Below, piece by piece: positions 1 through 31,676 of a DNA stretch of 64,000 bases. The notes under the pieces were generated by a model. The model worked only from the letters and a program-made list of their open reading frames with translations, was not told where the DNA came from and ran no database searches. Positions within the stretch are counted from its first letter, which is position 1, and the number at the start of each line of letters is the position of its first letter. This stretch comes from Paramacrobiotus metropolitanus (lineage: Eukaryota > Tardigrada > Eutardigrada > Parachela > Macrobiotidae). The stretch spans positions 3,782,001 to 3,846,000 of the forward strand of contig NW_026570221.1 in the NCBI RefSeq assembly GCF_019649055.1, given 5' to 3'. Made by a program: the position numbers and the translations under genes.

Positions 1-918
1 CGCTCTACTCCGTCAGGACTTATGGGAACTCGGGCCATATTCCCGACGTCCAAAAAGCCTTACGGCGACGTTAAGGGAGTGACCCATGTCATAGAAGTCG
101 GCGACGCTGCACCAATTAAAATGAACCCAACCCGAACGAGTTGGAAGGGACGAGAGTTCATCAATAAGCATGTCCAAGAAATGTTGGACCAAGGCGTGAT
201 TGAACCGTCCATGGCAGCGTGGAGTTTCCCAGTGGTCCTCGCCTCGAAGAAAAACGGCGACGGGACCATGGGCACCCGGTTCTGCATAAATTACATAAAG
301 CTGAACTCGGTGACCAAAAAGAACAACTACCCATTGCCCAATCCAGACGAACTTCTGGATCAATGTGCAGGCAACGCCTATTACGGCAAGGTAGATTGTC
401 AGTCCGGATTCTGGCAAATCCCTATTGTCCCAGCGTCTATGGACTACACTACCTTTGTGACTCCAGAAGGGATGTTCCGGTTCAAACGAATGCCGTTTTG
501 CGTCTGCAATGGGCCAGCCACATTCCAAATGACCATGGACAAGATTATGGCGCCAGCACGCAAACAAGGCGGCGTCTTCGCATACATCGACGACGTGATA
601 TTCTTCGGCAAGACATTCGAGGAATTCAGGAAGGCGTTTAGAAACACGCTCCTCTGCCTCAGAGACGCCGGATTCACAATAAAACCGTCGAAATGCGAAT
701 TTGGAATGGAAAAACTCCATTTCCTCGGACACATCCTCAGCAAGGACGGTGTCCATACTGATCCCGAGAAGGTAGCGGCCATCGCCGAGAAACTACCACC
801 CAAGACCGTCAACTTCGCTCGTTTCTTGGACTCGCTAACTACTACCGGAAGTTCATTCTGGGCTACGCCCAGAAGACTTCCAAGATGTATGAACTCCTGC
901 GGAAGGAAAGTTCAGTGA
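1..918 (+). pseudogene. pol: E1 reverse transcriptase (partial, frameshifted)
   Basis: Reverse transcriptase domain of a Ty3/gypsy Pol, which copies element RNA into DNA in the cytoplasmic particle. The frame is open from base 1, so the N-terminus lies outside the window. Visible landmarks are the SKKPYGDVKG lead-in, the fingers region with NNYPLPNPDELLD, KVDCQSGFWQIP, and the catalytic YIDD box at about 588-600 (FAYIDDVIFFGKT). It is closely similar to the RT of E2 at 38359-40300. The family sequence expected next (the QLRSFLGLANYYRKF region) appears in another frame from about 810, so a one-base indel near 805-812 separates RT from RNase H. The last 35 residues before the stop at 918 are therefore off-frame. 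Confidence 0.9.
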
Positions 919-1967
919 AGAACGACTGGACCGACGCCCACACCGCTGAGTTCAACGAAATCAAAAAGGCCCTAACGGAAGCCCCAATATTGGCCAAATT
1001 CGATGCGACCAAACAGACCACCATCGAATGTGATGCAAGTGGCGCTGGCATTGGAGCCATACTCAGCCAGGACTCGAGGCCAATTGCCTACGCAAGCCGT
1101 GTCCTACATGGAGCTGAGAAGAACTACGGCGTAACCGAATGGGAATGCTTAGCCGTAGTGTGGGCCGTCCAAAAGTTTAAGCACTACATTGACCACGGAC
1201 CTATCACAGTAAGGACGGACCACAGAGCCCTAACCAAACTGCTCAGATGCGAGTCTAACCGGCCCGGCATCAATCCTCGTCTTACTCGATGGGCCCTCGC
1301 CTTACAGGGACGGGACATCACCATTGAGTACAAACCAGGCACATTCTGTGATAACGCTGACGCATTGTCCAGATGGCCACTCGAACGGGACGATGACAAA
1401 GGCCCACATGAAGAGTTGGACCAAGTCCCTAACTTCGAGGATTACAAAGACGAGATTCCAGCACGCATCATAAAGGTGCGCAGGCTGCAAGTTACGGACG
1501 AGGACCCCGCAAATGAATGGGACAAGCCTCTCCTTCCCGATTGCAATGCAATCACAGATTGGGACCATTTCAGCACGGCGGACATAAGGGTGATCAATGT
1601 ACCGGCGCCCACATTGGGAGATCCAAAGCCCGAAGTCCCACCGTGTCCAGAAAAAGTCACGGACCGCACCGCGCAAGAACTGCGACGGATGCAACACCGT
1701 GACCCAACTCTGGCCAAGAAAATCCATGAGTTGGAACACCAAAGCGAAATGGACAAGAGGTCCAAATTACCTGAACATTACCAGATGGACAAAGGTGTGC
1801 TCTACCGACTCACCAACATCAATGCGAAACTCGAAAGGAGATTCGTTGTCCCTCTGTTTATGCGGAAAAATATATCCAGTCCCTCCATGATGGAAAAACA
1901 GGGAACCACTTTGGATACCGCAAAACTATTGAAGCAGCCAAACTTCGGTACTACTGGGTCCGCATGA
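840..1967 (+). pseudogene. pol: E1 RNase H and integrase zinc region (frameshifted)
   Basis: Continuation of Pol after the frameshift near 810. It starts with the RT thumb/connection (LANYYRKFILGYAQKT), then RNase H, which removes the RNA template. Catalytic acidic positions are visible as ECDASGAGIGA, the E of EWECLAVVWAV, RTDHRAL and DNADALSR. After a linker of about 150 residues comes the start of the integrase His-Cys region. A second indel near 1885 throws the last part off-frame: the zinc-binding pattern (H..H in HDGKTGNHF, then CQTC) continues in the next frame to about 2015. The stop at 1967 is thus not the natural end. Confidence 0.85.
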
Positions 1968-3073
1968 GCTGCGATATTCACGACTACATCGATCGATGTC
2001 AGACGTGTATTTTCGGCTAAGTACCGCGGCGAGCTGCCTACGGTAAGCTGCAGCCGACTGAAGCTGTTGCGCCTTGGTACCGCGTCTTTGCTGACTTTAA
2101 AGGACCTCTACCGGTGACCCAAACTAAGAAATACCGGTACATCGCTGTGGTGGTCGACCAAATGACGAAGTTCACCATAGCCCGACCGACTAAAACAAAC
2201 TCGGCCAAAGAATTTGAGAAGTTCTTTGTCGAAGAAGTCGTACTAAAGTACGGCATGCCACATACAATGCACTCCGACCGGGGCACGCACTTTACGGCAA
2301 AATCCTTCGCCAAAGTGGCGAAAATCTTCGGCATCGAGCAGACCTTCGGATCCGCTTATCATCCAGAGGGCCAAGGCCAAGTCGAACGCCAGATGCAAAC
2401 CATCTGGGACGGAATTCGAAACTTTGGCGGCGCCGGCGACGAACATCGTTGGCACAGGGCTCTACCTTACGTCATTTCCGGCATGAACCGTGCCGTTCAC
2501 GCAACCACTGGATTCTCGCCATACCACATGTTGTTTGGACGAGAAATGACCATACCACAAGACGTCCTCGCTGGGACCAACGTCCCAGAAACCTTTACGA
2601 CTAACGAACGTTATGTCCAGAGGATGCAGCAGCGCCTGAACCGGGCGCATGAAATCGTCAAAACGCGGATCGAAGAAGGGTTCTTAAGGGATGCGGCCAT
2701 CTACAACAAAAAGAAGTCGCAGGCCGAGTTCAAGAAGCGGGACTTGGTCACCCTAAAGAACATGGTGGACGACACGACTAATCCAAACAAGTTCGAAGGC
2801 GTCTACATTGTCATCGGCATACCTAAGCCGAACACTTACTGGATCCGAGAGCGGGACACCGGTGTGGAACACACCGTATGTGTTGACCGCCTAAAGCCTT
2901 ACCTTAATCCGGACGGCCCAACTCGCAGAATAACTCGCTCGACTAAGAAGAAGGGCGGCGATGCCGAACCGGAAGGTACAGAGCCAAGAAGGTGTGCCAA
3001 GACAGAGCCGGACAAGAGCAAGATGCGGCTTCCCCGGCAGCTCCTCCCGAAACTAAACTTGAGGAGCTGCTGA
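1885..3073 (+). pseudogene. pol: E1 integrase (frameshifted)
   Basis: Integrase inserts the element cDNA into the chromosome. The HHCC zinc domain lies at about 1885-2015 and is followed by an in-frame TAA at 2018-2020. The catalytic core runs from about 2080, with the DDE triad recognisable as the D of FADFKGPL, the D of HSDRGTHF and the E of GQGQVERQ, correctly spaced. The C-terminal domain (about 2640-2920) contains NKKKSQAEFKKRDLV and the SH3-like region ending with DRLKPYL. No chromodomain is seen. After about 2990 the frame drifts into a tail that is better read in another frame (next entry). Confidence 0.88.
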
Positions 3074-3912: not shown

Positions 3913-6900
3913 ATGGAAGGACGCCGACGTACTGATCGCTCAGATGACTCCGACCGCAGTAACCGCACACATCCATATTCACGACCGGAATCCCGGTCGG
4001 GCGGATCTTCCACTCGGTCGTCTAACCGGCCTCCGAGTGTACAGGTACCTAATATTAGGGCCAACCTAACCGCCGAGCAGCTGGCAACTATGTCAGTTGG
4101 CCCCAGTTCACGGGCCGACACACCGCTACCGCAATGCCAGCCTCTGCCACCACGAGCCATACCGCCTCAACTTTGGCCGCCAGGGACATTCTCTGACGAT
4201 ACCGGACTCCTGGTCAACGCAGCAGTAGCTGGAAGCCAGCCAAGCTCTACATCGGACCAAACGATCCGACGTTATCTTCAAGGCCGCACTGGCCCACCTC
4301 AACCAATGCGGTATGGCGGTCTACCGACCACAACGGCAAGCCAACCGGTCTTTACAACTGCGGCAGTCGGGCCAACGGTCACGACTACGCCGGTCCATAC
4401 TGGACCGCGGCCACAGTTTACTCCGCCGCCATACTATAACCCCCATTATGGATATCCACCGTATCCTGCGCCTGGGCCTTCAAACCAGCCGCAGCCGGAC
4501 ATAAACCCATGGCGATACCCACCACCGTGGATGTATCCGCCAGGACTATATGGATATCCACCGCCTTATGGCGGATATGGAGCATACGGCCAACCGCCGT
4601 ATAGCCCACCTTCAGCGGCACAACCTGACCCTACGGGCCAGACGCCGTCTGATTCATCCATTGAGCCTCCGCGAGCGGGACCGGAAGCGTACAGAACTCC
4701 AGCGCCGCCGGAAACCCAGCCAAGCACATCACAGCTCAACGAGCCAAGTGATTACCCACTACGGGTATTTGTGAATGGACGGCTCACAATATATAACCGG
4801 CCAGAAGAGGTTCCACCAGAATTGGCGGCCGAACTTGGCTTAGCCGAACCGGAACCAGCGGCACGGCCACCACTGAACCCAGTGTGTGTAGTCAGGCGTG
4901 ACCAGACTGTCCCACCGACAGAACCTGTGTCATCGCCAGAGCCAGAAGACGAAGGGGACTTCCGATGCGATCCAACTACACCGCCGATGAGGATTGAATC
5001 CCCTATCGAACCTTTGGCCGATGGCCGGACTCCACTCTACCAACTTCAGGACAATCTGAAGGAAGTAGAGAACGCCATCCAAGAGCTGGAGGCCATGATT
5101 CAAGAACTGGACAGACGCAGCCCTCACTACCGTGAGATGGCTCAGCGCATCATTCTCGATCAAGATGAATTCCGGCGCCTTGCTCATGAACTTAGTGAGG
5201 AAATTGCGACCCGCCAGGCTCAGAACGAGATATTCCCTTTGCATGACCAAACCGGTCAGGCATTTCTGGCGGCATCTCGCAGGCTGAGGGACCAGCTGGA
5301 ACAATATCGGACGGAAAAACAGCTGAGGACCGAAGGATCCGCAGCACCAACACGTCCAGCGCCAGCACCATCAGCACCGCCTCCCCCACTGAACCCAACA
5401 GTCGTAGTTACCGCTACGACAGGGGAATCTTCCGCGCCACCAGTGGCCCAGCCTACGTCAACCGACGAGGCAATGTTGACAGCCACTGGTATGGAATTGC
5501 GCGAAACAGCATCTTCTCCGTATGACCTGAGGGCTTACCCAGACATACCGCCCTTGGAGCGTGAACTACACGCCGCGGAACTCCTTGAAGAGGAAATCCG
5601 CAAAGTTATCACCAGCCTGAAGGGGGTGGACATCGCCACCTTACGGAGAAAAGTCGCGTTGAACTTAGAATTCCAACGCGTCCTGGAATACATTACCAGG
5701 ATCCGACGGGCCATGCTACGGTTCATGGATAAGCCATTAGATACGGCCGACGACGCACCAGCGCTGCGCGACTTCCGTAACCGGCAATACCAGCTTGGCC
5801 TGATCGACGAAGCACTTCGCCGTGTGTTGCCTAAACCCCGACCGGGGCAGCCAACACGCGTCGGACAAACCGGACTTCTCGTACCGACACGATCCTCAAC
5901 ACGCCAACCGGCGGAAGAATTGAGGATGAGAGTCTCGAGAATTATGCGGATCTCGGCGGAACGATTTGCAGCCGGACCGGCACTAAGTCGACCAGCCAGC
6001 GCGTCGGACACAGAAACCGACAGCGACATTGAATGGTTCGACATGCCCGATCCAATCCCCGTACCAGGACTTACAGCTCCGCCTGATCACTTGGTCGCGC
6101 CAGAACGACAGGTCCACCCGAGGCCAACTTCATTGGCGCCGCCACCAGCCATAGCGGAACGCCTGGAATCGATTATGCGGGGCAACGTCACGCAAGGCAG
6201 ACCGGCTTATGCGGACGATTTTCCGGTATTAAACCAACCGGACGACAACAATCGGCCGGCCCCTCGGACTTTACGTCAACAATGGGACGATGAACAGGCA
6301 GCAGCGAACCAACGGTTGCGCGAGGCTGATACTGGTCCCATGCAAATGACGGTTGTCCAAGCACTAAGCATTCGGCACCTCATCAGCGACGCTGGAGATG
6401 TCGAGCGCCGCATAACCAACCGGATCCAAGAACTCAGCCCATTTCACCTAAAAAGGTCAGCCTACACCGAAGCCAATCGAGGGCGACACATCAAGTGGAA
6501 CCCTTGTTGTACGGACAACGACCAGGAAATCGACAGGAGGACGGCCAGAACCAGCCACTCCTGCCACAACAAGTGGTCCACAGTCGCCCAGGTTCAAAAA
6601 GAAGAAGAGGACTCCCCCAGAAGCAGAGGAGCCTCCTTCACAACGGTCACTCCCACCTTGGCGATGGCCAAGAGTAAACTTGGAGCTGAACCACCCAACC
6701 AGGCCCACTCTACGAGCGTGGAGTGGCCTGCCAACGGACTTAGATGTCCCTGGCCCTACCAGGCCAGGCCGGTCCATACTCAAGCCGAAGAAGGCGGAAC
6801 TACCGACTTTGACGCTTCGCGGCCTACCGACCAAGAAGAAGAAGTCGCCGCCAAAGAATTTTCCCGGCAAGGGACATGTGCTTTCACCACCGAAAGCACC

Positions 6901-7029
6901 GAAGATTCCGTCAGGAACAACTCAGCCCTTGCGGGACGAACCTCCAACGAGGCATCGTATCCGATTGACTCAGACAGAGTCATGAGACGACCCGCACAAC
7001 CGGGCTGTAAGCGAGATCATAGAACTTGA
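3913..7029 (+). CDS. E1 ORF2, N-terminal block (Pro/Tyr-rich, then coiled coil)
   Basis: Large ORF downstream of integrase where errantiviruses carry env. No signal peptide or membrane segment is seen, so it is not an envelope gene. I chose the ATG at 3913; the frame opens slightly upstream at a GTG (3880). Residues 1-60 are Arg/Ser-rich, about 90-250 are Pro/Tyr/Gly-rich low complexity (YGYPPY-type runs), and about 380-480 and 560-640 are charged helices with coiled-coil character. From about 6450 the reading turns implausible; a natural-looking Pro/Lys-rich frame runs at 6680-6985 and then, past an in-frame TGA (6983-6985), into the next block. I therefore read this and the next two entries as one ORF2 of about 2350 residues, now broken. 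The E2 counterpart is at 34935-36552. Confidence 0.6.
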   Translation: MEGRRRTDRSDDSDRSNRTHPYSRPESRSGGSSTRSSNRPPSVQVPNIRANLTAEQLATMSVGPSSRADTPLPQCQPLPPRAIPPQLWPPGTFSDDTGLLVNAAVAGSQPSSTSDQTIRRYLQGRTGPPQPMRYGGLPTTTASQPVFTTAAVGPTVTTTPVHTGPRPQFTPPPYYNPHYGYPPYPAPGPSNQPQPDINPWRYPPPWMYPPGLYGYPPPYGGYGAYGQPPYSPPSAAQPDPTGQTPSDSSIEPPRAGPEAYRTPAPPETQPSTSQLNEPSDYPLRVFVNGRLTIYNRPEEVPPELAAELGLAEPEPAARPPLNPVCVVRRDQTVPPTEPVSSPEPEDEGDFRCDPTTPPMRIESPIEPLADGRTPLYQLQDNLKEVENAIQELEAMIQELDRRSPHYREMAQRIILDQDEFRRLAHELSEEIATRQAQNEIFPLHDQTGQAFLAASRRLRDQLEQYRTEKQLRTEGSAAPTRPAPAPSAPPPPLNPTVVVTATTGESSAPPVAQPTSTDEAMLTATGMELRETASSPYDLRAYPDIPPLERELHAAELLEEEIRKVITSLKGVDIATLRRKVALNLEFQRVLEYITRIRRAMLRFMDKPLDTADDAPALRDFRNRQYQLGLIDEALRRVLPKPRPGQPTRVGQTGLLVPTRSSTRQPAEELRMRVSRIMRISAERFAAGPALSRPASASDTETDSDIEWFDMPDPIPVPGLTAPPDHLVAPERQVHPRPTSLAPPPAIAERLESIMRGNVTQGRPAYADDFPVLNQPDDNNRPAPRTLRQQWDDEQAAANQRLREADTGPMQMTVVQALSIRHLISDAGDVERRITNRIQELSPFHLKRSAYTEANRGRHIKWNPCCTDNDQEIDRRTARTSHSCHNKWSTVAQVQKEEEDSPRSRGASFTTVTPTLAMAKSKLGAEPPNQAHSTSVEWPANGLRCPWPYQARPVHTQAEEGGTTDFDASRPTDQEEEVAAKEFSRQGTCAFTTESTEDSVRNNSALAGRTSNEASYPIDSDRVMRRPAQPGCKRDHRT

Positions 7030-8938
7030 TCTACGCTTAAACCTTACTGAGGAGGATATGCGCCAGCGACTACGAGCCGGCGATCCAACACTAACGGACC
7101 GTGAGATTGACCGCATCAACCGCGGTTGTCAACAGATGGTCCAAGGACGCACAATTCTCATCAGAAAACTGATGGCTATGCGGAGCAAGAGCCAGGCACT
7201 TCGCCAACGCAAGTTGCCTAGCGAAATTATCGAGCATGCCATCTACATCCGTAGCCCTCACATTAACCCAAGGGCATGGACAGTCGAACCGCGCCCGCGA
7301 CCAGGCCAGTCAGTGGAAGACGAACTTCCACCAGAAGAGGCAGAAAGTGAGGACGAACATCCTCAACTGCCAGCGGCCTTCTGGGGCGTCTCCTCTAGCG
7401 AGGAGTCGGAAATCGAGGAAGACTTAGACGAAAATGCCCAAAGGGCGTTATATGAGACCAGTCAGGTCCGGCTACCTTCAACGAAGGAATCGCCACGCCG
7501 AAGCCGATCTCCATCAAAAAGGACTTCTCCTGGATGCGCCACATCAACCCCGGCGCGAATGCCCAGTATGCCGGCCATCGAACCGGCGCCCGCCAGGTTC
7601 ACACCGAGCCGGCCAGGCAAGTCCCCAACCAAAGAGAGGATGAATACAACACATCCTCCAGAGCCAACGATGACCATTACTGTGGAACGAATCGCAGCAC
7701 CTACGGTGTCTGCAGATTCAACACTTGAGCCAGTAACGGTCACGGTTAGGACTCCTGCACCAGTGGTCGCAGAATCGGCCAGAATGACGGTGCGGATAAC
7801 TCCGGCTGTCGCGGCCATAGAAGTGGAAGCCGACGCGGCCTTGATGCCCATGAGTGCTCTCACTCCTATCGAGCAGAGACAGTTATTGATCCATGCTGAC
7901 CATAACGAGCGCCGGCAATATCCGTTCCTGCTCACAAAGAGACAGGAGGCCAAGGAGCAGAATCGTACCGAAGAGTACGATATGATAACCGAAATGCTCC
8001 GATCCTTGGTCCTACGGATGATAGATGATTACCGGCGCCGTCGCAACCAGAAAGACTTTCCCCAACCGGAGGAAGACTTCAGAATGGCTGAAACCCTGTC
8101 GTCAAATGCGCCACCAACTGTGGTACCGCCAAAGACGCAGGCACAACCACCAGCGGCTTCAGAGCCAATGGACACTTCTCCGTCTGGACCTGTGGCCACA
8201 GCACCACAGCCAGAACCAGTCCAACCGGAGGAGCCACCGAAGGCCACTTCGTCGGCACAAGAATCGGCAGGCCAAAGTCAGTCCGGAACAGGGCCAACGG
8301 CTGCTGCTCCGATAATACTGACGAACATGCCCGCCAGTATCGACGACATACCTTTCGGCCGTCCAGTAACCTTCCCTGCAACAGGGACAATGGAGAACTT
8401 TGCACTTGGCATGGGTGTAATTCACTCAGCTAACTCCCAACGGAGTAAGCAGCCGAGAAAAGCCAAAAACCCAGAGAGGGTCAAACCGACCTCTCGTCCA
8501 AACTCTCCTCAACCGAGAGCCAAACCGGCCACTCGTCCAAACTCCCCTCAACCGAGTGGGAGCCAGGCGACCACACCTCGGCCAACATCAAACCCAGAGG
8601 CCGAACCCGAAAGGAACCGCCAGAAGAAACAAGCAGCCAAAGACAAGAAAAGTCACGAGGCCAAGATCGCCCAGCTTGAGAAACGGCTGTCCGGCGATGA
8701 AGATGTCCAAGTCCTATCGGACAGTATGGACAAGCCTGAAGGGCCAGCAACATATCACCCATGGCAAGAAGAGGAATACGAGCCAGTCCCCGAAGGCGAA
8801 CCGCCTTCGGAGGAGACAATGCTCCCCTCGCCTGGGGACGACGAAGCTGAGCTCCCGGACCCTGGACCGGAGGCCACGCACATTGAGATCCCAACGGGTC
8901 AAAAGTGCGCCAATGGGTGGCAGCGGCCAGGATCATGA
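6989..8938 (+). CDS. E1 ORF2, middle block (Pro/Ala/Ser-rich)
   Basis: Continuation of ORF2 in the frame used at 6680-6985, separated only by the TGA at 6983-6985. It begins with a helical segment (LRLNLTEEDMRQRLRAG, REIDRINRG) and becomes an acidic, then Pro/Ala/Thr/Ser-rich, probably disordered region. Near 8480-8570 there are two short repeats of the type TSRPNSPQPRAKPATRPNSPQP. It ends off-frame: a one-base shift near 8900 leads into the following block. No family is recognised. In E2 the same position (32900-34300) holds an equally acidic/Lys-rich stretch with little sequence identity, as expected for a disordered linker. Confidence 0.55.
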   Translation, partial: DPHNRAVSEIIELDLRLNLTEEDMRQRLRAGDPTLTDREIDRINRGCQQMVQGRTILIRKLMAMRSKSQALRQRKLPSEIIEHAIYIRSPHINPRAWTVEPRPRPGQSVEDELPPEEAESEDEHPQLPAAFWGVSSSEESEIEEDLDENAQRALYETSQVRLPSTKESPRRSRSPSKRTSPGCATSTPARMPSMPAIEPAPARFTPSRPGKSPTKERMNTTHPPEPTMTITVERIAAPTVSADSTLEPVTVTVRTPAPVVAESARMTVRITPAVAAIEVEADAALMPMSALTPIEQRQLLIHADHNERRQYPFLLTKRQEAKEQNRTEEYDMITEMLRSLVLRMIDDYRRRRNQKDFPQPEEDFRMAETLSSNAPPTVVPPKTQAQPPAASEPMDTSPSGPVATAPQPEPVQPEEPPKATSSAQESAGQSQSGTGPTAAAPIILTNMPASIDDIPFGRPVTFPATGTMENFALGMGVIHSANSQRSKQPRKAKNPERVKPTSRPNSPQPRAKPATRPNSPQPSGSQATTPRPTSNPEAEPERNRQKKQAAKDKKSHEAKIAQLEKRLSGDEDVQVLSDSMDKPEGPATYHPWQEEEYEPVPEGEPPSEETMLPSPGDDEAELPDPGPEATHIEIPTGQKCANGWQRPGS

Positions 8939-10962
8939 GACGCACAACAGGAAGAGACATGTACCAGTGTCTCGTCCGAGTTCTCCGAGCCAGAATGGTA
9001 CATGAAGAAGAATTCAGGGGGCTACCGCCAGCGGACCGTGTACTAACGGCACCCTTTATGCGGCGGGTAGTGACTCTCATTTTGGATATGGGACTTCTGG
9101 TCCGCACACACCGTGACTGGACCAGCATGATGGAGCTTTACGTGCCTCATCGGCCAGCAGGGCTTTCCCGTTGCCGGGATTACCCCTTCCACCAGATATG
9201 CAGGACCATCGCTTACCTGCATAACCCAAAAGGCTCCAACTTAGTCGACATCGTCAGGACCCTTAATGCTCTATATTAAAAAGGAGAGGGTGACCTGGAA
9301 GAACTAGAGCGCATCATACTCGACGAGCTGTTAGCGCTGGTTAAGAACGGAACCTTGGAGACGACCAACGCCTACCGGGCGGAACCCATCCGCTTCACCA
9401 TCCCCGGGTTTATCCCGCAGAAGACCCAACGGTCTCTGTACGAGTCACAAGATGTGGGCACAAAATGGGACCCGGATAGAAAAAAAGCGGTCGGACCGCC
9501 GAAAGACAAGTTGACCGGCAGAGCCAAGGAGGCATATTTGATCTCCCAAGTGGCCAAACTGCCTGGTCCAAAGAACTTGCCGGTAGAAAAGCCTCCTCGG
9601 CCGTCCGTTACAAGAAGAGAATTGGCTGCACGACAAGAAGCGGAGGAAGAGATGCGCGCGTCCGGAATTCGGCCCGCGCCTAGAGACACAGTGTCACTGC
9701 CTAACGCAGCTGGCCGGTCCAGACCTCCTTCGCCAGCCTTATCGGCCACATCCACAAAGAGCCGAAAGGCCACAGCCACAAAGAAAAGAGGGAAAAAAGA
9801 TCCCTCACCGCAGCCAAGCGATTCGGACTCTGAGGACTCACAACCGGAGGACTCAGAGGAAGAGGATCAAGAAGAGCCGGACCAGGACCAAACCATGGAG
9901 TCCCAAAAGTCCGACTCTGATGACGATGATGACCAAAGCCCTGGTAAACTTACCATGGACCTCCCACCGGACCATGACATGGAAATCCCACCCGGTGACG
10001 AGAATCAGCCACCTAACGGTGACCAGGACATGGAGGACCAGGGTGGCGCAGAAGGCGTCAACCAGGAACAAGGCAGCGCAGAGGGCGCTAGCCAAGAAAG
10101 TCCAGCCAGCGTGGACAACGCTAAGCCAAGTGTAAGTGCTGCATCACCCGAACGGGAAAGGATGCGCGACTCGACCTCACCGGAATCAGATGACGGTGAG
10201 ATTCCATGGACTTTACCTGACCCATGCCCGGCCATACCGCGGATTGACTATGTCTCACCACCAACACCAAAGGTGGCCAGAAAATGGCCCGGCGGAGATC
10301 CTTCCAAAAAGCCGCGGATCTCCAACTCCGATAAGCGATGGGCATATATTAAGGCGGCCTTAAAGGCGTTGTCCCAAACGGGTACAACCCTTGCTACAGG
10401 GGGCTTGGCCTTCCAACTCATTAAGAAATGGAATGGCCCACCGCTGACCAAGTCCAAAGTGATAAAGTACATACAGATGGCCTACCATGAAGGAGATATA
10501 TTACGGACCCATCTGCCCAATACGCAGATCTTCTACACTTTCCCACCGGAAAAAGTGGATAAGGCTCCTCAAGGCTACTGGGAATGGCGTAACGCCGTCC
10601 TCACAGTGCTGACCACCACTCAGCACCCATTAGGCCTCACACGAGGCGAAATAGCCAACCAGCTCCTGGGCCGATACGATCTGAACGTCATCTCGCACCA
10701 TCCACAACTTATCGATGCGATAGCATATATGCCGAACCAGGGCCGCCCTAGCGGGTTGTACCCTATTTGCGAGGACGTCAGATACGTCGTACGGAAGATG
10801 TTAAACGAAGGATGGCTCGAGCAAACTGTCGACGAGCCCGAAGCTCAGCAGCGGTACAGACAACATAACATCCCACCGGATCGTTACGGCCCTCGTCCCA
10901 CCGAATCCGACTCCTTGGCCTCAACCAAGTCCAAGAAGAAGCGGCGTACTTACCATCAGTGA
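8905..10962 (+). CDS. E1 ORF2, C-terminal block with winged-helix-like modules
   Basis: About 685 residues interrupted by one in-frame TAA (9277-9279). Four segments of about 75-90 residues share a pattern of helices ending in a glycine turn and a beta hairpin: about 8935-9150 (..LDMGLLVRTHRDW), 9170-9420 (..VKNGTLETTNAY..FTIPGFIP), 10330-10560 (..YHEGDILR..FYTFPPE) and 10575-10840 (..LNEGWLEQ). This resembles repeated winged-helix DNA-binding folds; that fold call is inference. An acidic/Ser-rich linker of about 200 residues (9780-10230) separates the second and third modules. E2 keeps equivalents of all four (TTNAYEGSPIRYTILGFIP is nearly identical to the second), so the block is constrained. 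No known transposon protein comes to mind. Confidence 0.6.
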
Positions 10963-11096
10963 CCTAGGCGTAGAATTCGCATAGGGTCTAGGGGGTGATC
11001 CCGAAATAATTCACCGGGCAAGAAAAGCCTAGTTAACAAATCACATGTAAAATCATAGGGACGTAAAACGTAGGGCGTAATTATCATAGGGACCCG

Positions 11097-11106
11097 TTAT
11101 AAAAAG
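11097..11106 (+). promoter_or_regulatory. Possible internal TATA box before E1 ORF3
   Basis: TTATAAAAAG lies 47-56 bases before the ATG of ORF3, in the 190-base non-coding gap between ORF2 and ORF3. A splice-acceptor-like CAG (GTTACCACAG) also lies just before that ATG. ORF3 could thus be made from an internal promoter or a spliced RNA; the sequence does not decide. E2 shows an acceptor-like AAAATTGCAG in the same place but no TATA box. Confidence 0.3.
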
Positions 11107-11152
11107 TGGACTCAACCTTATTCTGCAAGTTTCATTTCTGTTACCACAGAGA

Positions 11153-13120
11153 ATGGGACTTACACCTCAGCAGAAGTATGAGCCGCGATGCTCGGACTGC
11201 AGACGCAACAGTAACAGCGGAGACCAAAACCGCCGGGACAATTCCTCACGGGAGTTGTTCCCCTGTGCATATCACCTGCGGCCGGGCTTCCGCGACGAGA
11301 GTGACCGAGCCTACTGCTTCTACTTAGAGGTGGTGAGAGGCAACTTTGACGCATACTGCCACATGACCAGCCGCGACGGAAGCAACCTGATCCCCCTACT
11401 GAGGGACCACGAGCAGATAGAGATCTACGATCTCTACATGCAACGTAGTGGCGCCCGACAACCTGGTTGGAGCAGTACCGGAACCCCGATTCCCCCACTC
11501 AGCCAATCGGCTCGAGAACGGAAGGACGAGCGGGACCGGGAACGTCGATCCCGCAACTCGGGATCTGACCAGTCCTCAGGGCGTGGCCTAACGGCCGCCC
11601 CGAGCAATTACGCACACCAGTCGCAGCGGCCATCATCAGGCTCTCGATCCTACGGATACGAGTTGCCCATACCCATGGAATACAACCAGGGGTTCGACAA
11701 AACGATCCTGGAAAACATCAATAAAGCTATGGTTGACCAGGTGACCCGACAGCTGTTGGAAGGTGGATTGCTGGACGCCTTAAAAGGCCAATACCAGCCA
11801 GCGCGCTCTGAACAGCGCACACCGCTGACACCGCTACCGCGGAACCCGGATGACTTACGTCACCAGATTCAGAGCCGCAACCAGGACCAACCTGGCCGCC
11901 AAAGCCGTAGCCAGGCCGACGAGCGCCGAACGCGCACATCCCCCGGAAAACGGAACGAAACCGAGTCCAGCCTGGTTGTCGCGCAGTCCACCAAGCGACC
12001 AGAACGAAGTGTCAGCTCGGTGGCCCACAACATCAGTATCCATATACCAATGGAGACTGAGGCCACACTGCCAGCGGCGGACCTACCGGTCCAGCCTGCA
12101 CCAACTGGCAGCACTTCGGACTTCGATCCTTACAAGTATGCTGATGACCAGGGCCTCAACATCCGGCCACTTCCCCACCGGGTGGTGACGGATTATATTA
12201 TGGGTGCTATCCCATACCCAAGGGACAGATTGGCCCAAGTGGATGCCATGGTCCAGAACCTGCAAACGTTCGTCACCAGGTCTGGCCTTGAAATGGAAAT
12301 GCAGCGGAAAGATTGGCCTCGTGATTTTAGCATGGCCGAACACATACAGAACCGCGAGGGCTACCCGATGGTCCGTGACAATGCTCTATCGAGCATCACG
12401 GACGTGAACTTACTTGGACAGCCCATCACCAGACCGGACTGGAACGACTTGTGCCAACTGCACATTAAGGACGACCAACTTGATGTTGTCAAATACCTGG
12501 CTCAGTTTGTCCTACCGGACGCAAACGCCAGTTTCATCATCGCAGCTTGCAGAGCTGCCATAGACATCCCATGCAAACCGGCGGACCACAGGGATGATCC
12601 AGAGACACAAACTTACTCCTATAACGGCACGATGATACGCATCTTTGCCGCCCGACTCGGCCACCTACATTGCCACTGGGAACTTGAAGTTGCCTACCGG
12701 CAAGGGAAAATCGTCCCTCGGTTACTGACCCAGGTGGCGCTTCTGGGGAATCAAATCCATGAAGTTGAAGCGGGAGTCAAGATCCAAAGCGCCCTCAACG
12801 TTTACAGGAGCCGCGCCAAAGATTACCGCTATAAACATCCGACGGACTTCGACGACAATGCGGAAGTGTTCGTCAATCGAACAGCAACGAGGAAACTTCC
12901 AACGAAGTTTCGAACTCAGCGATCCTCAACAGGATCGTCCGCACACGTCCAAACCCAGGCCGTCCAACCAGACCAAGAAGTCCAGCCGGCCAGCGCCTCC
13001 AGCCAACATCAACAAAACCTGACAGAACAGGAATTGGCGGCTATGGAGGAAAGCGTCGTCGACCCACTCAACCCTGGGTTGGGCGACGGCGACCAAGCCG
13101 GACAAGGAGGGCAGGGATAG
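11153..13120 (+). CDS. E1 ORF3, lineage-conserved protein of unknown function
   Basis: 655 residues from an ATG with an intact frame. The N-terminal 90 residues contain paired cysteines (PRCSDC, then FPCAYHL) in a zinc-binding-like arrangement, followed by FDAYCHMTSRDG. The middle (about 120-330) is Arg/Ser/Gln/Pro-rich and probably disordered. The C-terminal 270 residues are ordered and match E2 ORF3: KYLAQFVLPDANASFIIAACRAAID here against EYVAQFVLRNVNPAFKILAARAAIG there, and later IFAARLGHLHCHWEL against VFAARLGHFPTQNQL. No signal peptide, membrane segment or catalytic motif is seen. A structural or nucleic-acid-binding role is possible but unproven. This is the only long ORF of E1 without an obvious break. 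Confidence 0.65.
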   Translation: MGLTPQQKYEPRCSDCRRNSNSGDQNRRDNSSRELFPCAYHLRPGFRDESDRAYCFYLEVVRGNFDAYCHMTSRDGSNLIPLLRDHEQIEIYDLYMQRSGARQPGWSSTGTPIPPLSQSARERKDERDRERRSRNSGSDQSSGRGLTAAPSNYAHQSQRPSSGSRSYGYELPIPMEYNQGFDKTILENINKAMVDQVTRQLLEGGLLDALKGQYQPARSEQRTPLTPLPRNPDDLRHQIQSRNQDQPGRQSRSQADERRTRTSPGKRNETESSLVVAQSTKRPERSVSSVAHNISIHIPMETEATLPAADLPVQPAPTGSTSDFDPYKYADDQGLNIRPLPHRVVTDYIMGAIPYPRDRLAQVDAMVQNLQTFVTRSGLEMEMQRKDWPRDFSMAEHIQNREGYPMVRDNALSSITDVNLLGQPITRPDWNDLCQLHIKDDQLDVVKYLAQFVLPDANASFIIAACRAAIDIPCKPADHRDDPETQTYSYNGTMIRIFAARLGHLHCHWELEVAYRQGKIVPRLLTQVALLGNQIHEVEAGVKIQSALNVYRSRAKDYRYKHPTDFDDNAEVFVNRTATRKLPTKFRTQRSSTGSSAHVQTQAVQPDQEVQPASASSQHQQNLTEQELAAMEESVVDPLNPGLGDGDQAGQGGQG

Positions 13121-15145
13121 GCCAACGGCCATTCCTGCATGTTGGCCCTAAAAAGGGACCAACATCACCTGAAACCAGACTTGAACACCACGATGGGTAC
13201 AATCCAACGGTTGTAGCCCTTGCCCAACAAACGTGGCTTACGGCCATGTACCGCCTACCTCACCGGACCTAAATCCCTGGATCTTAACCGGATTCCCCGG
13301 ATAGGCTCTGGCTTAGCGGCTGGGACCATGAATTTGGCTCGGCCATCCCAGACCATCCGACGGAGTCCACCGGATCGAACTTGGCGCGAGTGGGGTTCAC
13401 CGGCATGGAAGAGATCCAGCGCCCAGAAAGCGGCGACGGCCCGCATAGAAGTTGCGACAAGCCGTGGATCAGCCTGGCCCGCATACAAGTTGCGACAAGC
13501 CAAGGCCAAGTCCTGGCCCATAGAAATTGGACCAGGCCCACTATGCGTCTAACCGACCATAGATGGCTCACGAGTTTAGTTGCCATACCAGGCAACTGGG
13601 ACAAGTGAGTTTGGGAGCCACATGAAAGTTGTGGTACACCCACCTTGCATGCCACGTCCAACATCCTCACCACGGATCGCCCAGAGGCCCATCCAATAGA
13701 TGCACCGCCCCGAGGCCAAATGAGGATGCTCCTAGTCAGCAGACCGACTCCTTTGTGGAAAACGCCTACCGGCGCCCACAATTTAATTTTTTGGAGTTTG
13801 GCCCGGCAACCCTGATGTTTTCGTCAGACGCCACTTAATTTTGTTATGGCCACGGTCTCAGAGAAACCTACCTGACTCATCGGACATGGTAGCCAACTCA
13901 TGGCCCACGGCCAGTGAGACGGACCAACTTTGGCCCGCCATCAATTTTGGACCATCGAAAAAACGACTAAGTCCATTTGGCCCGCCATCAACCGCGGACA
14001 GTCGAAAAATCGACTAAGTCTTTTGGCCCGTCCAACGACGTGGCCACTGGAAAATCGACTAAGTCTTTTGGCCCGTCCAATGACGTGGCTCATCAAAAAA
14101 CGACTAAGTCCACATCGGAGAGCCAAAACCTGTTATACAGGACCCCCACGTCCCACACCAGCCGGAGGTGAGCCAAATCACAATGAAACCTTGTATCCCG
14201 GCCCAGAGCACGTCAGAGACCGAGTTTGGACCGCCCCAACGGGTTTGGTCCATTACACCACTTGGTCCTCGGACTTAGAAATTTTTCCATTATGGCCCTC
14301 TTGGACTTAGAAGATTTTTGGACCTAGGCGCATGACCAAACCGGCATGCAAGGCCAAAACCGGTCCAAGTTAGAGACCCTTATGGGCCATCCAAACGGAA
14401 TTGGTCCAAGCATACTATTTTCGTCACGGGAGCACCTCTCCTGTCCAGAGCCATCACTATGGCCCACCACGGACCGCCCAACCGGGCTTGGTCCTCCATA
14501 TCAGGAAGGGGATAACTGTCCTTGCGCATGCAACCGTGCCTTCCTCATACAACTCCGCTGGAATTACTTCGCTGGACCCCTGTGGACATCTCTGGAAACC
14601 GTCGCCCCGGATTCACAGGACCAGACACATCCTACCGGATAAAGCGGACCGTTGACTAGGACCCGTGTGGACATTGGCCCTGTGGCAACCCTAGTCGGAA
14701 TAAGCCCTTCTGTTTTGTCTAGTTTTTTAACCAAACCTGGTTTTTCTAGACTTTATTAACCAAAGATGATGTTTTTATTTAGCCATTTAACCAAAGGAAT
14801 TGGCTTTGGGGATCTCTAACTATGATCTTACTTTCTTTATTTCTCACCGGAATAGTGATCTTTTTTATTTCGATGTTTAACCTACGAGCCTTATAAACTT
14901 TATATTTTTTACTTGTTCGACCAACCAAGCCTTCAAACCCCACTGGAAACCCCTGCAACCAGAGTGCACTCCAGATTTCGGCCGTTCGGTGCACTGCACC
15001 GCGGGTCTGGAGGAAGCGACCCAACCGGGTTCAGAGACAAAGTGGCATCCGGCCTTACCGGGTATCGGATCCTGGCACCCTACCGGGTTAGCCAGGGGCA
15101 GAGTCGGAAGGTGCTCGCAGGAGCTCCCACTCCCGCCCAGAGGCA
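13121..15145 (+). other. E1 3' untranslated region
   Basis: About 2 kb between ORF3 and the 3' LTR with only short chance ORFs. It holds a four-copy tandem repeat (13930-14110). It ends with the conserved pre-LTR string GGAGCTC..CCCGCCCAGAGGCA, which E2 shares. No gene is seen. Confidence 0.6.
13925..14112 (+). repeat. Four-copy tandem repeat of about 50 bp in E1 3' UTR
   Basis: The phrase TCGAAAAATCGACTAAGTC followed by TTTGGCCCGYC recurs four times with small changes. It lies in the non-coding part upstream of the 3' LTR, where LTR elements often keep regulatory repeats. Function is unknown. Confidence 0.7.
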
Positions 15146-15529
15146 TGTCAGAGACCGCTCACTCGAGGCGGTAGACACCTCTCGTGGCTCTCTCTGTCGC
15201 CCGCCCGAACGTGGCAACGCCACTCGTGCCGCGCTATTACGCTGCTCACTCAGCGTATACTTTGTCTACGCTGACCAATCAGCGCATTTCTCTGCACTCT
15301 TGGGGGTGGAGCCTAGCGCTTACGGGCGATTCCGTGCTTTGCAGCATCAGCTGTTGCACACCGGCAGCACGCGGAATCATTATCACGATTCCCAGCTAGC
15401 GCACTGCAGGCACTTTTTCCACAGCTTTTTCCCACATCGGGTTTTCTGTTGGTTTTGTGTTGTTGTTGCTTTATTGCTATCACAATAAAGGCATATTTTG
15501 CCCCATTTTCCATCTGCTTCTGTGTCATA
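15146..15529 (+). repeat. 3' LTR of E1 (outer end tentative)
   Basis: Starts with TGTCAG after the conserved CCCAGAGGCA, exactly where the E2 LTR starts with TGTAAG after the same string. A CCAAT-type box (CTGACCAATCAGC) lies near 15270, and E2 has a matching GATTGGCTGA. A poly(A) signal AATAAA lies at 15484-15489. The end at 15529 (TGTCATA) is chosen by length and the ATA ending of E2; without the 5' copy it cannot be confirmed. Confidence 0.6.
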
Positions 15530-15906
15530 TCTGACAACTGACTGGTACGGTGTGGAGGGGTGCTTTATATATGGTCCTGGTCCGGATGGGCTCGGCTGCC
15601 ATGGGTGGGGCTGGTGTGGCGACAAGCCAATGACAGAGTGCATGACGGCATGATGATGTAATATGCGGTCAGCGTTACGTCATATGACCGCGCAGGAATG
15701 TGCAGGGCATACCAACACGTAGGCTTCCCGTGACTAATGGTCGTGCAGTGCGACTAGTGACGATGTCGTCACATTACCACCAAAGAGTGTCAACATTCAA
15801 AATTCACTGCCCAGTTAAATGCGATGAATTAGCAGCTTTGTTCGCTAAACAGCAACAAATTTCATGAATAATACTGGTTTTCACCACTGAACTCATTCTG
15901 ACAGCA
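15530..15906. other. Spacer after E1
   Basis: Non-coding, with a short inverted repeat GCGGTCA..TGACCGC near 15665-15695. Nothing else is recognised. Confidence 0.5.
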
Positions 15907-16370
15907 ATGTCCCCCATGCCGGACACCCCTAAATTCGTTCCGGCAGTAATGTCCCCCATGCCGGACACTACTAAATCCGTTCCGGCAATAATGTCCCCCA
16001 TGCCGGACACTACTAAATTCGTTCCGGCAATAATGTCCCCCATGCCGGACACTACTAAATTCCTTCCGGCAATAATGTCCCCCATGCCGGACACTACTAA
16101 ATTCGTTCCGGCAATAATGTCCCCCATGCCGGACACTACAAAAGTTGTTCCGGCAATAATGTCCCCCATGCCGGACACTACTAAATTCCTTCCGGCAATA
16201 ATGTCCCCCATGCCGGACACCACCAAATTCGTTCCGGCAATAATGTCCCCCATGCCGGACACCACTAAATTCGTTCCGGCAATAATGTCCCCATGCCGGA
16301 CACCACTAAATTCGTTCCGGCAATATTGTCCCCCATGCCGGACACCACTAAATTCGTTCCGGCGTTAATG
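15907..16370. repeat. Minisatellite, 42-bp unit, about 11 copies
   Basis: Tandem copies of a 42-bp unit that begins ATGTCCCCCATGCCGGACAC and ends GTTCCGGCAATA. Copies differ at few positions. The unit is a multiple of three, so both strands stay open (plus strand reads MSPMPDTTKFVPAI again and again); one copy near 16287 lacks a C and shifts the frame. Each unit contains TGCCGGA and its inverted partner TCCGGCA, so each could form a small hairpin. I regard it as a non-coding satellite, not a gene. Confidence 0.92.
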
Positions 16371-18217
16371 TCTTTTGGGTCACCGATTATCGCAGTTGTT
16401 TCCCGTTGGTTACGCTATGGTAACGCTAATGGTACTGTTTTAAAGGTCATCGATTGACCTGAAAATCAGCTTCCCGTGGTAGGTCCCCCATGTTACCATT
16501 CTGGCCAAAGGGTTACAGTTTTGGCGAATGTGGCAGGGGGGACACGGCAAAAATGTCCGGGGGGACAGGGGGACAATTTTGCCGGTCACATATGTACGCA
16601 TCCTTAGTGGATACAATACCTGTTGCAGCAATATCCAGCTGACACCTGTGGATCCTACGCCGACGTACAGCGACCGCAGTGCTGTATAAAGAGCTTTGAG
16701 CCCATTCGAAGGGCTAGTTTCACCTAGTCACCTCTCGGCGGGGGTTCGGTTCCATCGGTTTTCACCAATGTATCGAAGTCGCTCTGGTGGCATTCACTTT
16801 AATGCGGTTACCATTAAGCGGCGTATTCCGGCCCCGGAAATGGCTTTATTAAGCCAAAGCTGCGTTCATTACATTCCGTTATCGGGAGAACACTGTCTAC
16901 TATTTACATGTTCCTATTTCCTAGAGACTTGTTAGTGGCCTTCGTCGATAACACCACTCGATAAAGTCAGAAAAAGCTTTGCATATTCGTTCGAACGACG
17001 ACATACATTTTGATTTATTTTGTTAAAAGCTAACTGCATGGCTAATCACAGACCTGGACAATATTTTATGATGTATTTGCGTCACGCAAATAAGCGGACA
17101 AAACGGTAAACCATAAACATTGTTAATTTTTCGCTAATGTACCATTATTGGCAAAATTTTTTTTTATTTAAAACCGATATGGTACATGGAATGTACATTT
17201 GCATCACTGTAGCACTTGCAAACTTTTCTTGAATCGGTTTAGAATATCTTTTCAAGCCATGTGGTTTGTACTTTGTACAAGTTTCCGGTTAAAGGCTTGG
17301 GCTTTTCAACGTCTTCAATTTACCTAAAGTGTAATTCTTCCCACAAAACGCTCGTCCACACTGGGAGCATCGCGGGTATTGCAGCGTCTAACATTTAACT
17401 GTACTTGAAAGCTTTCAGTTGTTATTGCCAGTTGCCAGGACAGTGCCTCTTATTAATTTTTATTATTGCTCCGCATTAAATCGCAGCCGAATGAAGTTTA
17501 TAATATATATTATAATTATACATACAAAAGGTAAAAAAATCATTGTTTGAATGAGGTATGGCCTTATTTAGTACGGCGGTATGCTAGCATTTCCATGTTT
17601 TCACACTCACAATTTCACACACAATTGTGTTTCTCTCATCGTCGCCATTCTTTCCGCAGCGCGGTCAGTGTGATGCGGCTCAGTTTGCTTTCATCCAAAA
17701 AATGCCAATCTTCCTGATCCCATTCACAACCGCGGTAGTGGGTAGTCGGACGAGGATCAGCGCTCTGGTAGGTGCGCAGAATCTATGCACGACCAACAGA
17801 CCAACCGCGTAGGCTCGTAGCATGAACAGACAAAGCTTTGATATTTGTAGGTAGTTATTAATCTGAAAACTATGTTCCCTTTCCGTCACATGTTATCGCT
17901 TAAAGCATGTGGACCGCACGCCTGAAAAAGCAGTGCAGTACAGCACAGCAACCGGTTTTTTGACTGAGCCCAAAGATCTGCGGCTTTGCCTGTGAATAAA
18001 ATGTGTATCTGGATATGTTTCATGTTTCGGTCAGTTTAAGTTCACAGTTTCATATTTCGGTCACCGGTCACTTGCTCCACCCCCCAAACGGCGCGTTACG
18101 TGAATAACTGCTGATCGCACAACGTGTTTTTTATGTGTTTCTCACTGGTCTGTGTGATTAAAACAAAACTGAAAATGGTGGAATTTAAATTTGCTGAAGT
18201 TGGTAAACGCGGAAGTA
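16371..18217. other. Non-coding spacer
   Basis: About 1.8 kb, AT-rich in its middle (around 17140-17180 and 17490-17530). A short imperfect inverted repeat GGCAAAAATGTCC..GGACAATTTTGCC lies at 16546-16583. No convincing gene, RNA gene or element end is seen. Confidence 0.5.
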
Positions 18218-18876
18218 TGGTGTACCGATTGCGCAAAGGTTTTGCAAACAAATGCTAAATGACAAATGCTTTCTAGTTTTCAATCAAATGTTACTGACAA
18301 ATGTTTTTTGCTACCAGACAAATGTTTTTAAAAAATTATTAACAGACAAATGTTTCGGACAAATGTTTTTTACTTTTTTTTAAAAAACATTTCACAGACA
18401 AATGTCACTGACAAATGTCAGAAACATTCAGACAATTGTTACTGACAAATGCCAGAAACTTTCAGACAAATGTTTCTGACAAATGTCTTGATGTGATTGT
18501 AAGTGCCGTCTCGTGCACCAGAGGCGCGAACGCTGAACGCAACCACACAGTCCGCACTCAGATTTGCGGTGGTAGGCTTCTAAGTTGTGAGTCTCTGACA
18601 TTTGTCAAAAACATTTGTCTGAAAGTTTCTGAAATTTGACAGTAACATTTGTCTGAATGTTTCTGACATTTGTCAGTAACATTTGTCTGTGAAACTTTTT
18701 TAAAAAACATTTGTCTTAAATTAAAAAACATTTGTCCGAAACATTTGTCTGTTAAGAATTTTTTAAAAACATTTGTCTGGTCGCAAAAAACATTTGTCAG
18801 TAACATTTGATTGAAATCTAGAAAGCATTTGTCATTTAGCATTTGTTTGTAAAACATTTGCGCAATCGGTACACCA
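18218..18876. mobile_element. Foldback/MITE-like element with long inverted repeats and TA duplication
   Basis: Two inverted arms of about 270-280 bp (18218-18489 and 18594-18876) face each other across a spacer of about 104 bp. The outer ends are TGGTGTACCGATTGCGCAAA and its complement, and each is flanked by TA (18216-18217 and 18877-18878), the target duplication of Tc1/mariner-type elements. Both arms are built from many degenerate copies of GACAAATGT. There is no transposase, so it is non-autonomous. The short ORFs inside are by-products of the repeats. Confidence 0.85.
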
Positions 18877-19165
18877 TACGGAAGGGCGGTTACCTATTTT
18901 ATTTTGCACAATTCCTGTTCTTACTTTGGTTTTTTATGGAAGTTTTTTGTGTGAATTCAAGCCTTGAAATTCATGAGCGAAGTTTTTACTATGAAAGCTA
19001 TTTATTTCTGATATTTTTGTTGGTCCACAAATTTTGACACCAGGAGACCGAAATATGAAACCGCATGCTTAAAGTCACCGAAATATGGGCTAAGCATTTT
19101 ACAATTTTTGGTTGTTTTGTTGTGTTCGTTGAACGGTGCGACGGGGAAGAGAATAATGTTCTCAG

Positions 19166-20792: not shown

Positions 20793-22061
20793 TTGCTAAC
20801 CGCAGATGCATACGCACAGATGCATTTCGTACAGATGCATTTCGCATTGTAAACTGTTTAACCGTTTGCCTGATTTTGTAGCTATGCCACTTCTAACCGT
20901 GAACATTAATTCTGCAAGGAATATGAGTGCGTAGTATTACTAGTGGTAATGCACGGAATTGGAAAAAAATTATGTGCCTACTGCTTACTGCAGGCTGCGT
21001 TTCCGGACAATGGATTACAAGAGATAAGCTCTAGATAATCCGCGTTTTTCCTGAATTAGTAACACAGGCTCTTATCGCTGCACCACAAACAGCTATCTGT
21101 CAAACACAGTCTGCACGCGTAAGCAATTATTTCAGCAGCTGCGCGGCTCGTCCCTAAAATCCGAAACCTTCTAGACATTATTGTAGTACATATCAAATTC
21201 GACCGGCAATAAAAAATTAAACGATGAGTGTGGTGTTGACCAACCACGGGTCCGCATGATGAGGCTTCTCTTTTTCTTTAACGGAAGCTTAAAAGGCAAC
21301 CCCCACGACGTTTGACTGTAGATCAGCCGTGAATAAATTACAATGGACGCCATAAATTTGGTTACACCGATAGGGCTATGCTTGCAAGGAGCTATCGGTG
21401 TGACCACATTTGCGGCGTCCACTGTGCCTGTACTATCGCATTGGCAGTTCGCGGCCAACGACAAAGACAGCGGCGTCAATGATTTATAAGAAACGACCAA
21501 GAGGAGTACGACGGCATAAAACCCGATGGATATTACCTGTACATAATTTTATTCAGACCAATACTTTACACGTGTTAAAACACTTTTAGCAGAACCAAAG
21601 CCCATTAGACATTTCAGATTTCTCCACAGTGCCCATGACAGAAACCGCATTACCACGCTGTATCTCTAAAGACAGTCGCTGTCGTAGAAATTCATGTGAG
21701 CGGGCATCTCCAGAATGAGCCCGTAATCTCTTTCCTAAACCGATGGATATGGATATTCGCCTGGATGGATATTCGCCTGAACGGATGGGTATGGATATTC
21801 GCCTGAACGGTAAACACCAGCTACTGCACGGCCCTGAAATCAACGCTGTCGAGACGGCCTTGTCAATAGACAGATCGACCCTTATCGTCCCGTAAGTTTT
21901 CTGCGGGTAGGATAAGCCAGCCAATAAATTTGGAACAGGTAAATCCCTGTTTAGGAATTAGTATTAGTGCAGAATAAACACCGTATAAAAAGAATAACAT
22001 TATTCAAACAACTGAATGCTTGTAAATCGCATAGCTGTCGAAGGAACGTAGCCTTTCGCCT
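20793..22061. other. Spacer between gene A and element E2
   Basis: Non-coding by inspection. Contains the imperfect hairpin at 21340-21425 and short repeats of GGATATTCGCCTGAACGGATGG near 21740-21810. The four bases 22058-22061 (GCCT) are the left target duplication of E2. Confidence 0.5.
21340..21425. ncRNA. Candidate precursor-microRNA-like hairpin
   Basis: Arms 21340-21373 and 21392-21425 are inverted copies matching at 29 of 34 positions; at least two differences would be G-U pairs in RNA. The loop is 18 nt (21374-21391). Stem length, loop size and scattered mismatches fit an animal microRNA precursor, but a small MITE remnant would look alike. The sequence does not show which strand is expressed. 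Confidence 0.35.
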
Positions 22062-22440
22062 TATAACCGTGGACTGTGAAAGAGTCCAGGACGGAAGCCC
22101 AGACTGACAGGACTCCGTGTAGTGTAGAACGTGACGTACTAGGGATGAAATGCGCAACGCACGATATCCAGTCTACGTTCTACAATTTAATAGCGTCTTC
22201 GATCGATCATCAAAACACACTGACGTTCAATGCTCAATGAGCTAACGTCTACTAGATTTCTCTCATATAAACTGCACGGCGCATAGTGAACACAGTGAAC
22301 AGCAGCCGTCAGCCAATCAGAAAAGAGACACGCCACAGACGGTAATTCCATGGGGAAATCCCCAGTGCGTAGTGCAACGAAGCACTCCCCCAACTCCAGT
22401 AGCGTCACGCAAGTGGACGCAAGGGAGCCATCGCCTTACA
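22062..22440 (-). repeat. 3' LTR of E2
   Basis: 379 bp; on the minus strand it begins TGTAAGGCGATGG and ends CCACGGTTATA. It is preceded inside the element by the string CCCACCCAGAGGCA, shared with E1. It carries a TATA-like TTATATGA (about 22264-22271) and an ATTAAA poly(A)-type signal (22186-22191), both on the minus strand. An ORF of 73 residues is open in both LTR copies but has no ordered look; I do not call it a gene. Confidence 0.95.
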
Positions 22441-26203: not shown

Positions 26204-26580
26204 CTTCGGTATTAATCTGCAATTTTAAAGCATCATCAAAATATCATCTCATAGCCATCTCACGATCATTCTTATCATCTTTTACGCCTATTTTAGGCTA
26301 TTCCCGTACTGAGCTGAGACCTTCCTAGCTCATGATGACATTTTTAACACTGTAACATGGTGACCTTTCCATGTTGTCAGTTCTAAGCTCATTCGCCTAT
26401 TTGACCGATGTGAGTATCTCATCTCCTCATCTTGTTTAGCGCGTTCGCTAAGTTATTTCAACCATCTGTTTCAACGTTTTTCATCTCGGTTGTTTCAGTT
26501 TTTCGCCTTCGTTAAACTGGTATGATGCTGTTTCTTCTGTGATATGCGGTGGACCTTCCTAACCGCACATCACGCATCTC
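26204..26580 (-). other. E2 gap between ORF2 and ORF3
   Basis: 377 non-coding bases, AT-rich, at the same place as the 190-base gap in E1. The end next to ORF3 looks like a splice acceptor. No TATA box is seen here, unlike in E1. Confidence 0.5.
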
Positions 26581-27374: not shown

Positions 27375-27452
27375 GTATTTACCATGATTACTAAGATTGC
27401 GCATTCATTTATGCATACCTACAGTGCACCTGACCAAATTGAACAACTGCAG

Positions 27453-30498: not shown

Positions 30499-30569
30499 CT
30501 TATTGCTAAACATCCCTATATTTCCGTCGCTTCATGCATTTCTGGTTTCGTGAAGGTAACGACCAACAG

Positions 30570-31665: not shown

Positions 31666-31676
31666 ATAGTCGCGAT

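Follow-up and report, generated by a model that had tools for sequence, protein, structure and literature searches.

A conserved pair of non-envelope genes in giant gypsy-type LTR elements of a tardigrade, one with a predicted and probably in part linker-histone-like array of winged helices

Extra genes are already known from giant elements of the gypsy type, such as Burro and Ogre, and third open reading frames (ORFs) after pol from plants and rotifers, as described in the accessible parts of the literature. Burro is found in planarians: its polyprotein of 4,873 aa includes MATH, BIR, ankyrin and BCL2 domains, the last of these separated from the protease by an env-like part, according to the accessible sections of its description (PMC6431247). 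In Ogre and other plant elements some products of the additional ORFs are nuclear, in the sections of the sources available (PMC6431247, PMC7264820). For tardigrades there is a curated repeat study, made on two other species; its accessible main text contains neither the word Paramacrobiotus nor the word giant. Here we describe two elements, E1 and E2, of the tardigrade Paramacrobiotus metropolitanus. They are found in a stretch of 64,000 nt, which we call the window (positions 3782001-3846000 of contig NW_026570221.1), and in the sequence 5' of it (labelled L001 and L002).

E1 and E2 represent two related groups of giant gypsy-type long terminal repeat (LTR) elements. Both have the gypsy-type (Ty3) domain order protease, reverse transcriptase (RT), RNase H, integrase, and both have paired LTRs with the primer binding site TGGTAGCAG directly 3' of the 5' LTR. 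E1 is on the + strand and has a length of about 23.9 kb; E2 is on the - strand and has 28.2 kb, roughly 4.5 kb of which are a Helitron-like insert within ORF2. In E1 we find gag, protease, RT, RNase H, integrase, ORF2 and ORF3, and in E2 the order is the same. A sequence-only reading of the window had claimed that both elements carry ORF2 and then ORF3 after the integrase. This is the case, though ORF2 is broken in E1 and both genes are broken in E2. It is almost certain that this pair of genes is a real module, borne by the elements and maintained by selection.

The pair is not a peculiarity of these two copies. Searches throughout the genome (169.8 Mb in 533 contigs) gave at least 73 matches to the E1-type ORF3, with identities from 100 down to 55%, and at least 62 to the E2-type ORF3, in groups near 85, 60 and 47% identity. 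Some of these are fragments belonging to one and the same copy; the counts are lower bounds, from 68 of 719 first-look candidates scored for E1 and 59 of 663 for E2. ORF2 is found directly upstream of ORF3 in 29 of the 30 best E1-type loci, E1 included. Three further E1-type copies have integrase and ORF2 upstream and an E1-type LTR downstream. Among the 30 loci are two (L007 and L011) in which no more than 1.5 kb separates the integrase from ORF3, and L011 has no ORF2: they are internal deletion derivatives which have lost most or all of it. Among E2-type copies eight were retrieved and six checked, all of them with ORF2 upstream of ORF3; linkage of this pair to integrase and LTR is seen only in E2 itself.

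Both genes are under strong purifying selection, as judged from pairwise Nei-Gojobori ratios of nonsynonymous to synonymous substitution (dN/dS) between open copies. This comparison had been proposed together with the sequence-only reading. For the E1-type ORF3 the pooled value is 0.145, with all 136 pairs below 0.5 (17 open copies, coverage at least 90%); for the C-terminal part of ORF2 it is 0.173, with all 153 pairs below 0.5 (18 open copies). The E2 type is similar: 0.07-0.16 for ORF3 in ten of ten within-group pairs and 0.10-0.16 for the ORF2 C-terminal part in the four pairs computed. Along ORF3 the ratio is 0.116 and 0.109 in the cysteine N-terminal domain, 0.313 and 0.192 in the middle rich in Arg-Ser (RS), 0.085 and 0.074 in the C-terminal domain and 0.297 in the tail. 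The choice of open copies may push all these values down; the pattern of ORF3 nonetheless follows its domains. Four pairs of E1-type copies gave 0.05-0.06 for the integrase, so that the constraint on this enzyme is somewhat stronger than that on ORF2 and ORF3.

Sequence comparison suggests that the pair has one common origin in the two types. The C-terminal domain of ORF3 has 29% identity between E1 and E2 over 170 aa (E 1e-11). When the profiles of the two types are compared, this domain is matched with 98.2% probability (182 columns) and the N-terminal domain with 94.8% (95 columns). In ORF2 the TTNAY motif, which belongs to the winged-helix array, is matched with E 2e-7, and the array can be aligned between types from wing 1 to wing 4. 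The persistence of the TTNAY and YVAQFVL..AARAAI matches, noticed in the sequence-only reading, is thus above chance. Since two domains of ORF3 and the ORF2 array all match, independent capture is unlikely.

These data also bear on the idea that the two genes derive from an env which has diverged strongly, or that each element took them up separately from its host. The place of ORF2 and ORF3 downstream of the integrase would suit it. However, no membrane segment is apparent, as the sequence-only reading had stated: averaged over 19 residues, hydropathy peaks at 1.64 in one broken piece of E2, and 28 open frames or parts of frames from other copies do not go above 1.39. Among the pieces of ORF2 and ORF3 that were scanned no Pfam family reached its cut-off, and there was no match to env, gag or a host gene; nor did a protein search, within the limits of the tool, return any homologue outside P. 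metropolitanus. As both genes also stand in the same order with the similarities just described, such an origin is extremely improbable.

ORF2 is naturally one long ORF, since it is found as a single open frame of 2,540-2,559 aa in 5 of 90 matches elsewhere in the genome (parts of these frames were read). In E1 it starts with the ATG at 3913 and is spread over frames 0, 1 and 0 (about 3.9-6.9, 7.0-8.9 and 8.9-10.9 kb, by codon-usage scoring); by comparison with three other copies, roughly half a kilobase is missing from it around 6.45 kb. All its pieces are on the + strand. The first one (3913-7029) has a Pro/Tyr-rich N-terminus, two PPPY motifs and coiled coils, with a frame break near its end. 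It is followed by a second piece (7058-8938) and by a third (8887-9276; E2 match E 0.001), which contains winged-helix-like segment 1 and the first half of winged helix 2. The C-terminal piece (9280-10962) has the rest of winged helix 2, up to about 9418, and winged helices 3 (about 10318-10551) and 4 (about 10567-10860). The E2 gene is on the - strand and frame-broken: 31336-36570 holds winged helices 1 to 3 together with the beginning of 4, and the rest of winged helix 4 lies past the nested insert, in 26585-26890, a position assigned by comparison with other copies. Its N-terminal part has a PPMY motif. Three NCBI proteins of P. metropolitanus match ORF2 with 80-95% identity over 31-70% of the query. 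These gene models (P0005-P0007) are built from ORF2 pieces; two of them have host names, armadillo-like helical domain-containing protein 4 and SETD1B-like, which look wrong. Their origin in ORF2 accounts for the presence of such host-like names in this species.

The C-terminal part of ORF2 is predicted to be an array of winged helices. This had been proposed from the sequence and agrees with a structure model of the E2-type homologue and with the alignment. The reading can now be sharpened: the array is probably in part linker-histone-like. Winged helices 2 and 4 are likely related to the globular domain of linker histone H1, as judged from structure and from sequence with a shuffle control, in which these two wings beat nearly all shuffles of the host H1 and winged helix 3 does not. 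Several results weigh against this likeness and would favour generic wings, binding nucleic acid or protein and unrelated to linker histones, for example in a transcription factor acting at the LTR. The best score with the linker histone family PF00538 is 18 bits, under the Pfam gathering cut-off of 22.4. Winged helix 3 matches the wings of Fur, cullin, MecI and SAMD1 equally well. In Foldseek many other wings rank ahead of those of linker histones, and winged helix 4 of the E1 type has no sequence support for the likeness. This last result slightly weakens the case for the likeness, and with it the role of ORF2 discussed below. Generic wings are nevertheless rather unlikely, given the shuffle result for winged helices 2 and 4 but not 3; for winged helix 4 all 15 among the matches listed count against them. 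ORF2 has no long lysine-rich C-terminal tail: it ends soon after winged helix 4, in the E1 type with a short basic stretch only.

ORF3 is intact in E1 (11153-13120, + strand, 655 aa), with a Cys-cluster N-terminal domain (residues 1-115), an RS-rich middle and a conserved C-terminal domain (about 331-560), which agrees with what had been read from the sequence. In E2 it is frame-broken (23211-26224, - strand); other copies of the E2 type have open frames, the longest of 1,010 aa. The N-terminal domain has a CxxC...C pattern, CSDC...CAYH in E1 and CPDC...CxxC in the E2 type, followed by helices. The middle is rich in Arg-Ser and Arg-Asp, and in the E2 type we take it to be similar to the tails of SR proteins. 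The C-terminal domain has the conserved motifs YVAQFVL...AARAAI and FAARLGH; Pfam gave no known relatives for it in the pieces scanned. A structure model of ORF3 is confident only around residues 49-136, and fold comparison of this model yielded nothing informative.

What could these two proteins do? LTR elements need to package their RNA, bring the cDNA into the nucleus and insert it in chromatin. In an element of over 20 kb the long RNA and cDNA would be an added load, which ORF2 and ORF3 appear suited to meet. For ORF2 the role that we favour, with a little less than an even chance, is that of an accessory protein which engages chromatin or DNA: its Tyr/Pro-rich, coiled-coil N-terminus would self-assemble, its winged helices would bind linker DNA or nucleosomes, and the protein might condense the unusually long cDNA, tether the integration complex to chromatin, or both. 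ORF3, judging by the composition of its Cys cluster, RS-rich middle and helical C-terminal domain, may act on the RNA of the element, in packaging, nuclear export or splicing control. The complete picture is slightly more tentative: a lineage of giant animal LTR retrotransposons which would encode its own H1-like architectural protein (ORF2) and an RNA-handling ORF3, and thus package and deliver into chromatin a genome of over 20 kb.

Other roles should be compared with this one. The two proteins might be extra structural components of the particle, holding or packaging a genome of at least 20 kb, with the PPxY motifs of ORF2 as late-domain-like motifs. The presence of these motifs in the N-terminal part of ORF2 in both elements agrees with this, as do the coiled coils and low-complexity regions, which fit assembly, and the selection on both genes. 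We find it somewhat unlikely, because the winged-helix array and its likeness to H1 indicate DNA or nucleosomes and a motif as short as PPxY may occur by chance in a Pro/Tyr-rich sequence. Alternatively the module may counter silencing by the host, either by competing with its linker histone or by disturbing RNA-based silencing. Modules similar to H1 inside a selfish element, in copies as recent as E1 with its LTRs 99.2% alike, would agree with this. But the genes are under purifying selection, with no hint of the rapid evolution that antagonists usually show, and no host target is known, so that a silencing antagonist appears unlikely.

The remaining parts of the elements are as follows. In E1 the gag gene lies 5' of the window (L002:924-5186, 1,420 aa open) and the protease was recognised by eye from its motif. 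RT and RNase H are in 1-1967 (+ strand), with the RT start before the window: the RT is identified by its DNA similarity to that of E2 (70.6% over 479 bp) and the RNase H by Pfam (RT_RNaseH_2 2.9e-33, RT_RNaseH 4.3e-33). The integrase core and C-terminal part are in 2021-3073 (+; rve 3.9e-15). In E2, on the - strand, the gag region (44953-48599) was placed by eye: it is frame-broken, with a coiled coil and a zinc-knuckle-like C-terminus, and two pieces scanned with Pfam gave no gag family. The aspartic protease is in 42600-43427 (Asp_protease_2 1e-6, above its cut-off) and RT, RNase H and integrase in 36571-40275 (RVT_1 1.2e-26, RT_RNaseH 3.8e-33, Integrase_H2C2 1.8e-6). Identity between E1 and E2 is 49% in RNase H and connector and 37% in the C-terminal part of the integrase.

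The E1 3' LTR (15146-15536, +) has 391 bp, TGTCAGA...TCTGACA, and is 99.2% identical to the 5' LTR, which starts at L001:9614, 8.4 kb 5' of the window. It is preceded by a 3' non-coding region (13121-15145, +) with short tandem repeats at 13929-14110 and CTCCCGCCCAGAGGCA at its end. The E2 LTRs (- strand) have 379 bp, with edges set by eye, and are 97.9% identical over the aligned blocks. The 3' LTR (22062-22440, block 22059-22445) has CTCCCACCCAGAGGCA before it and AGGC after it; the 5' LTR (49840-50218, block 49837-50222) has AGGC before it and the primer site directly after it. The E1 LTRs cannot be aligned to those of E2, and in spite of this CTCCCRCCCAGAGGCA is found directly before the 3' LTR in both (15130-15145, +; 22441-22456, -); it differs from the usual purine-rich tract. 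Whereas AGGC flanks E2 on both sides, E1 has no matching target-site duplication in spite of its similar LTRs (ATGT at L001:9610-9613, ACTG at 15537-15540), which may point to recombination between copies. Although the LTRs of E2 (22062-50218) are about 98% alike, its gag, pol, ORF2 and ORF3 contain many frame breaks: either other elements supplied the proteins that copied it, or the breaks are indel errors of the assembly. The insert which interrupts the coding region of its winged helix 4 (27443-31097, +) is Helitron-like, with DUF6570 (7.7e-26) and helicase-like frames recognised by eye.

Other repeats are found nearby. An array of 42-bp tandem repeats (15798-16376) lies just outside the E1 3' LTR, and long inverted repeats with arms of 162 and 111 nt (18215-18879) are possibly a separate DNA element. 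L001:3622-5706 is a repeat array in which, on both strands, several of the reading frames are open.

Two questions remain open for retroelements: what allows them to grow beyond the roughly 10 kb that is usual, and in what way the integration complex finds and handles chromatin. A large family of elements selected for a partly linker-histone-like array would be a direct test object for both, and would suggest that retroelements are able to recruit histone-type modules. ORF2 and ORF3 also provide an accessory gene pair for the annotation of giant elements which pipelines leave as unknown.

The elements of the E1 and E2 types, known here from one tardigrade genome, likely form a new lineage; a limited literature search found no report of an LTR element with linker-histone-like domains. 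They share with Burro, as it appears in the accessible text, an internal region of at least 20 kb with much extra coding sequence (PMC6431247). They differ from it by two separate extra genes after the integrase, without a Pfam match; MATH, BIR, ankyrin and BCL2 are absent from the E1 and E2 pieces scanned, a set which leaves out the E1 gag and part of the E2 gag. Like Ogre and other plant elements they have additional conserved ORFs, often placed between pol and the 3' LTR, but the latter have plant hosts and no linker-histone-like array is reported for them in the accessible sections (PMC6431247, PMC7264820). The bdelloid rotifer elements are also of animal origin and have non-envelope third ORFs; in the available part of their description, ORF3 is a GDSL esterase, a DEDDy exonuclease or an env-like protein, unlike the pair found here (PMC5408684). 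With linker histones H1/H5 (PF00538) winged helices 2 and 4 share a predicted fold and a weak sequence pattern, but they are embedded in a protein of a retroelement (ORF2, about 2,550 aa), which has several consecutive wings, lacks a long lysine-rich tail and scores below the family cut-off. Finally, chromoviruses carry a chromodomain on their integrase; a Pfam scan of the C-terminal pieces of both integrases, E1 and E2, found no chromodomain. Like chromoviruses, the tardigrade elements may read chromatin by means of a protein of their own, but in a different way: with winged helices in a separate ORF instead of a chromodomain on the integrase.

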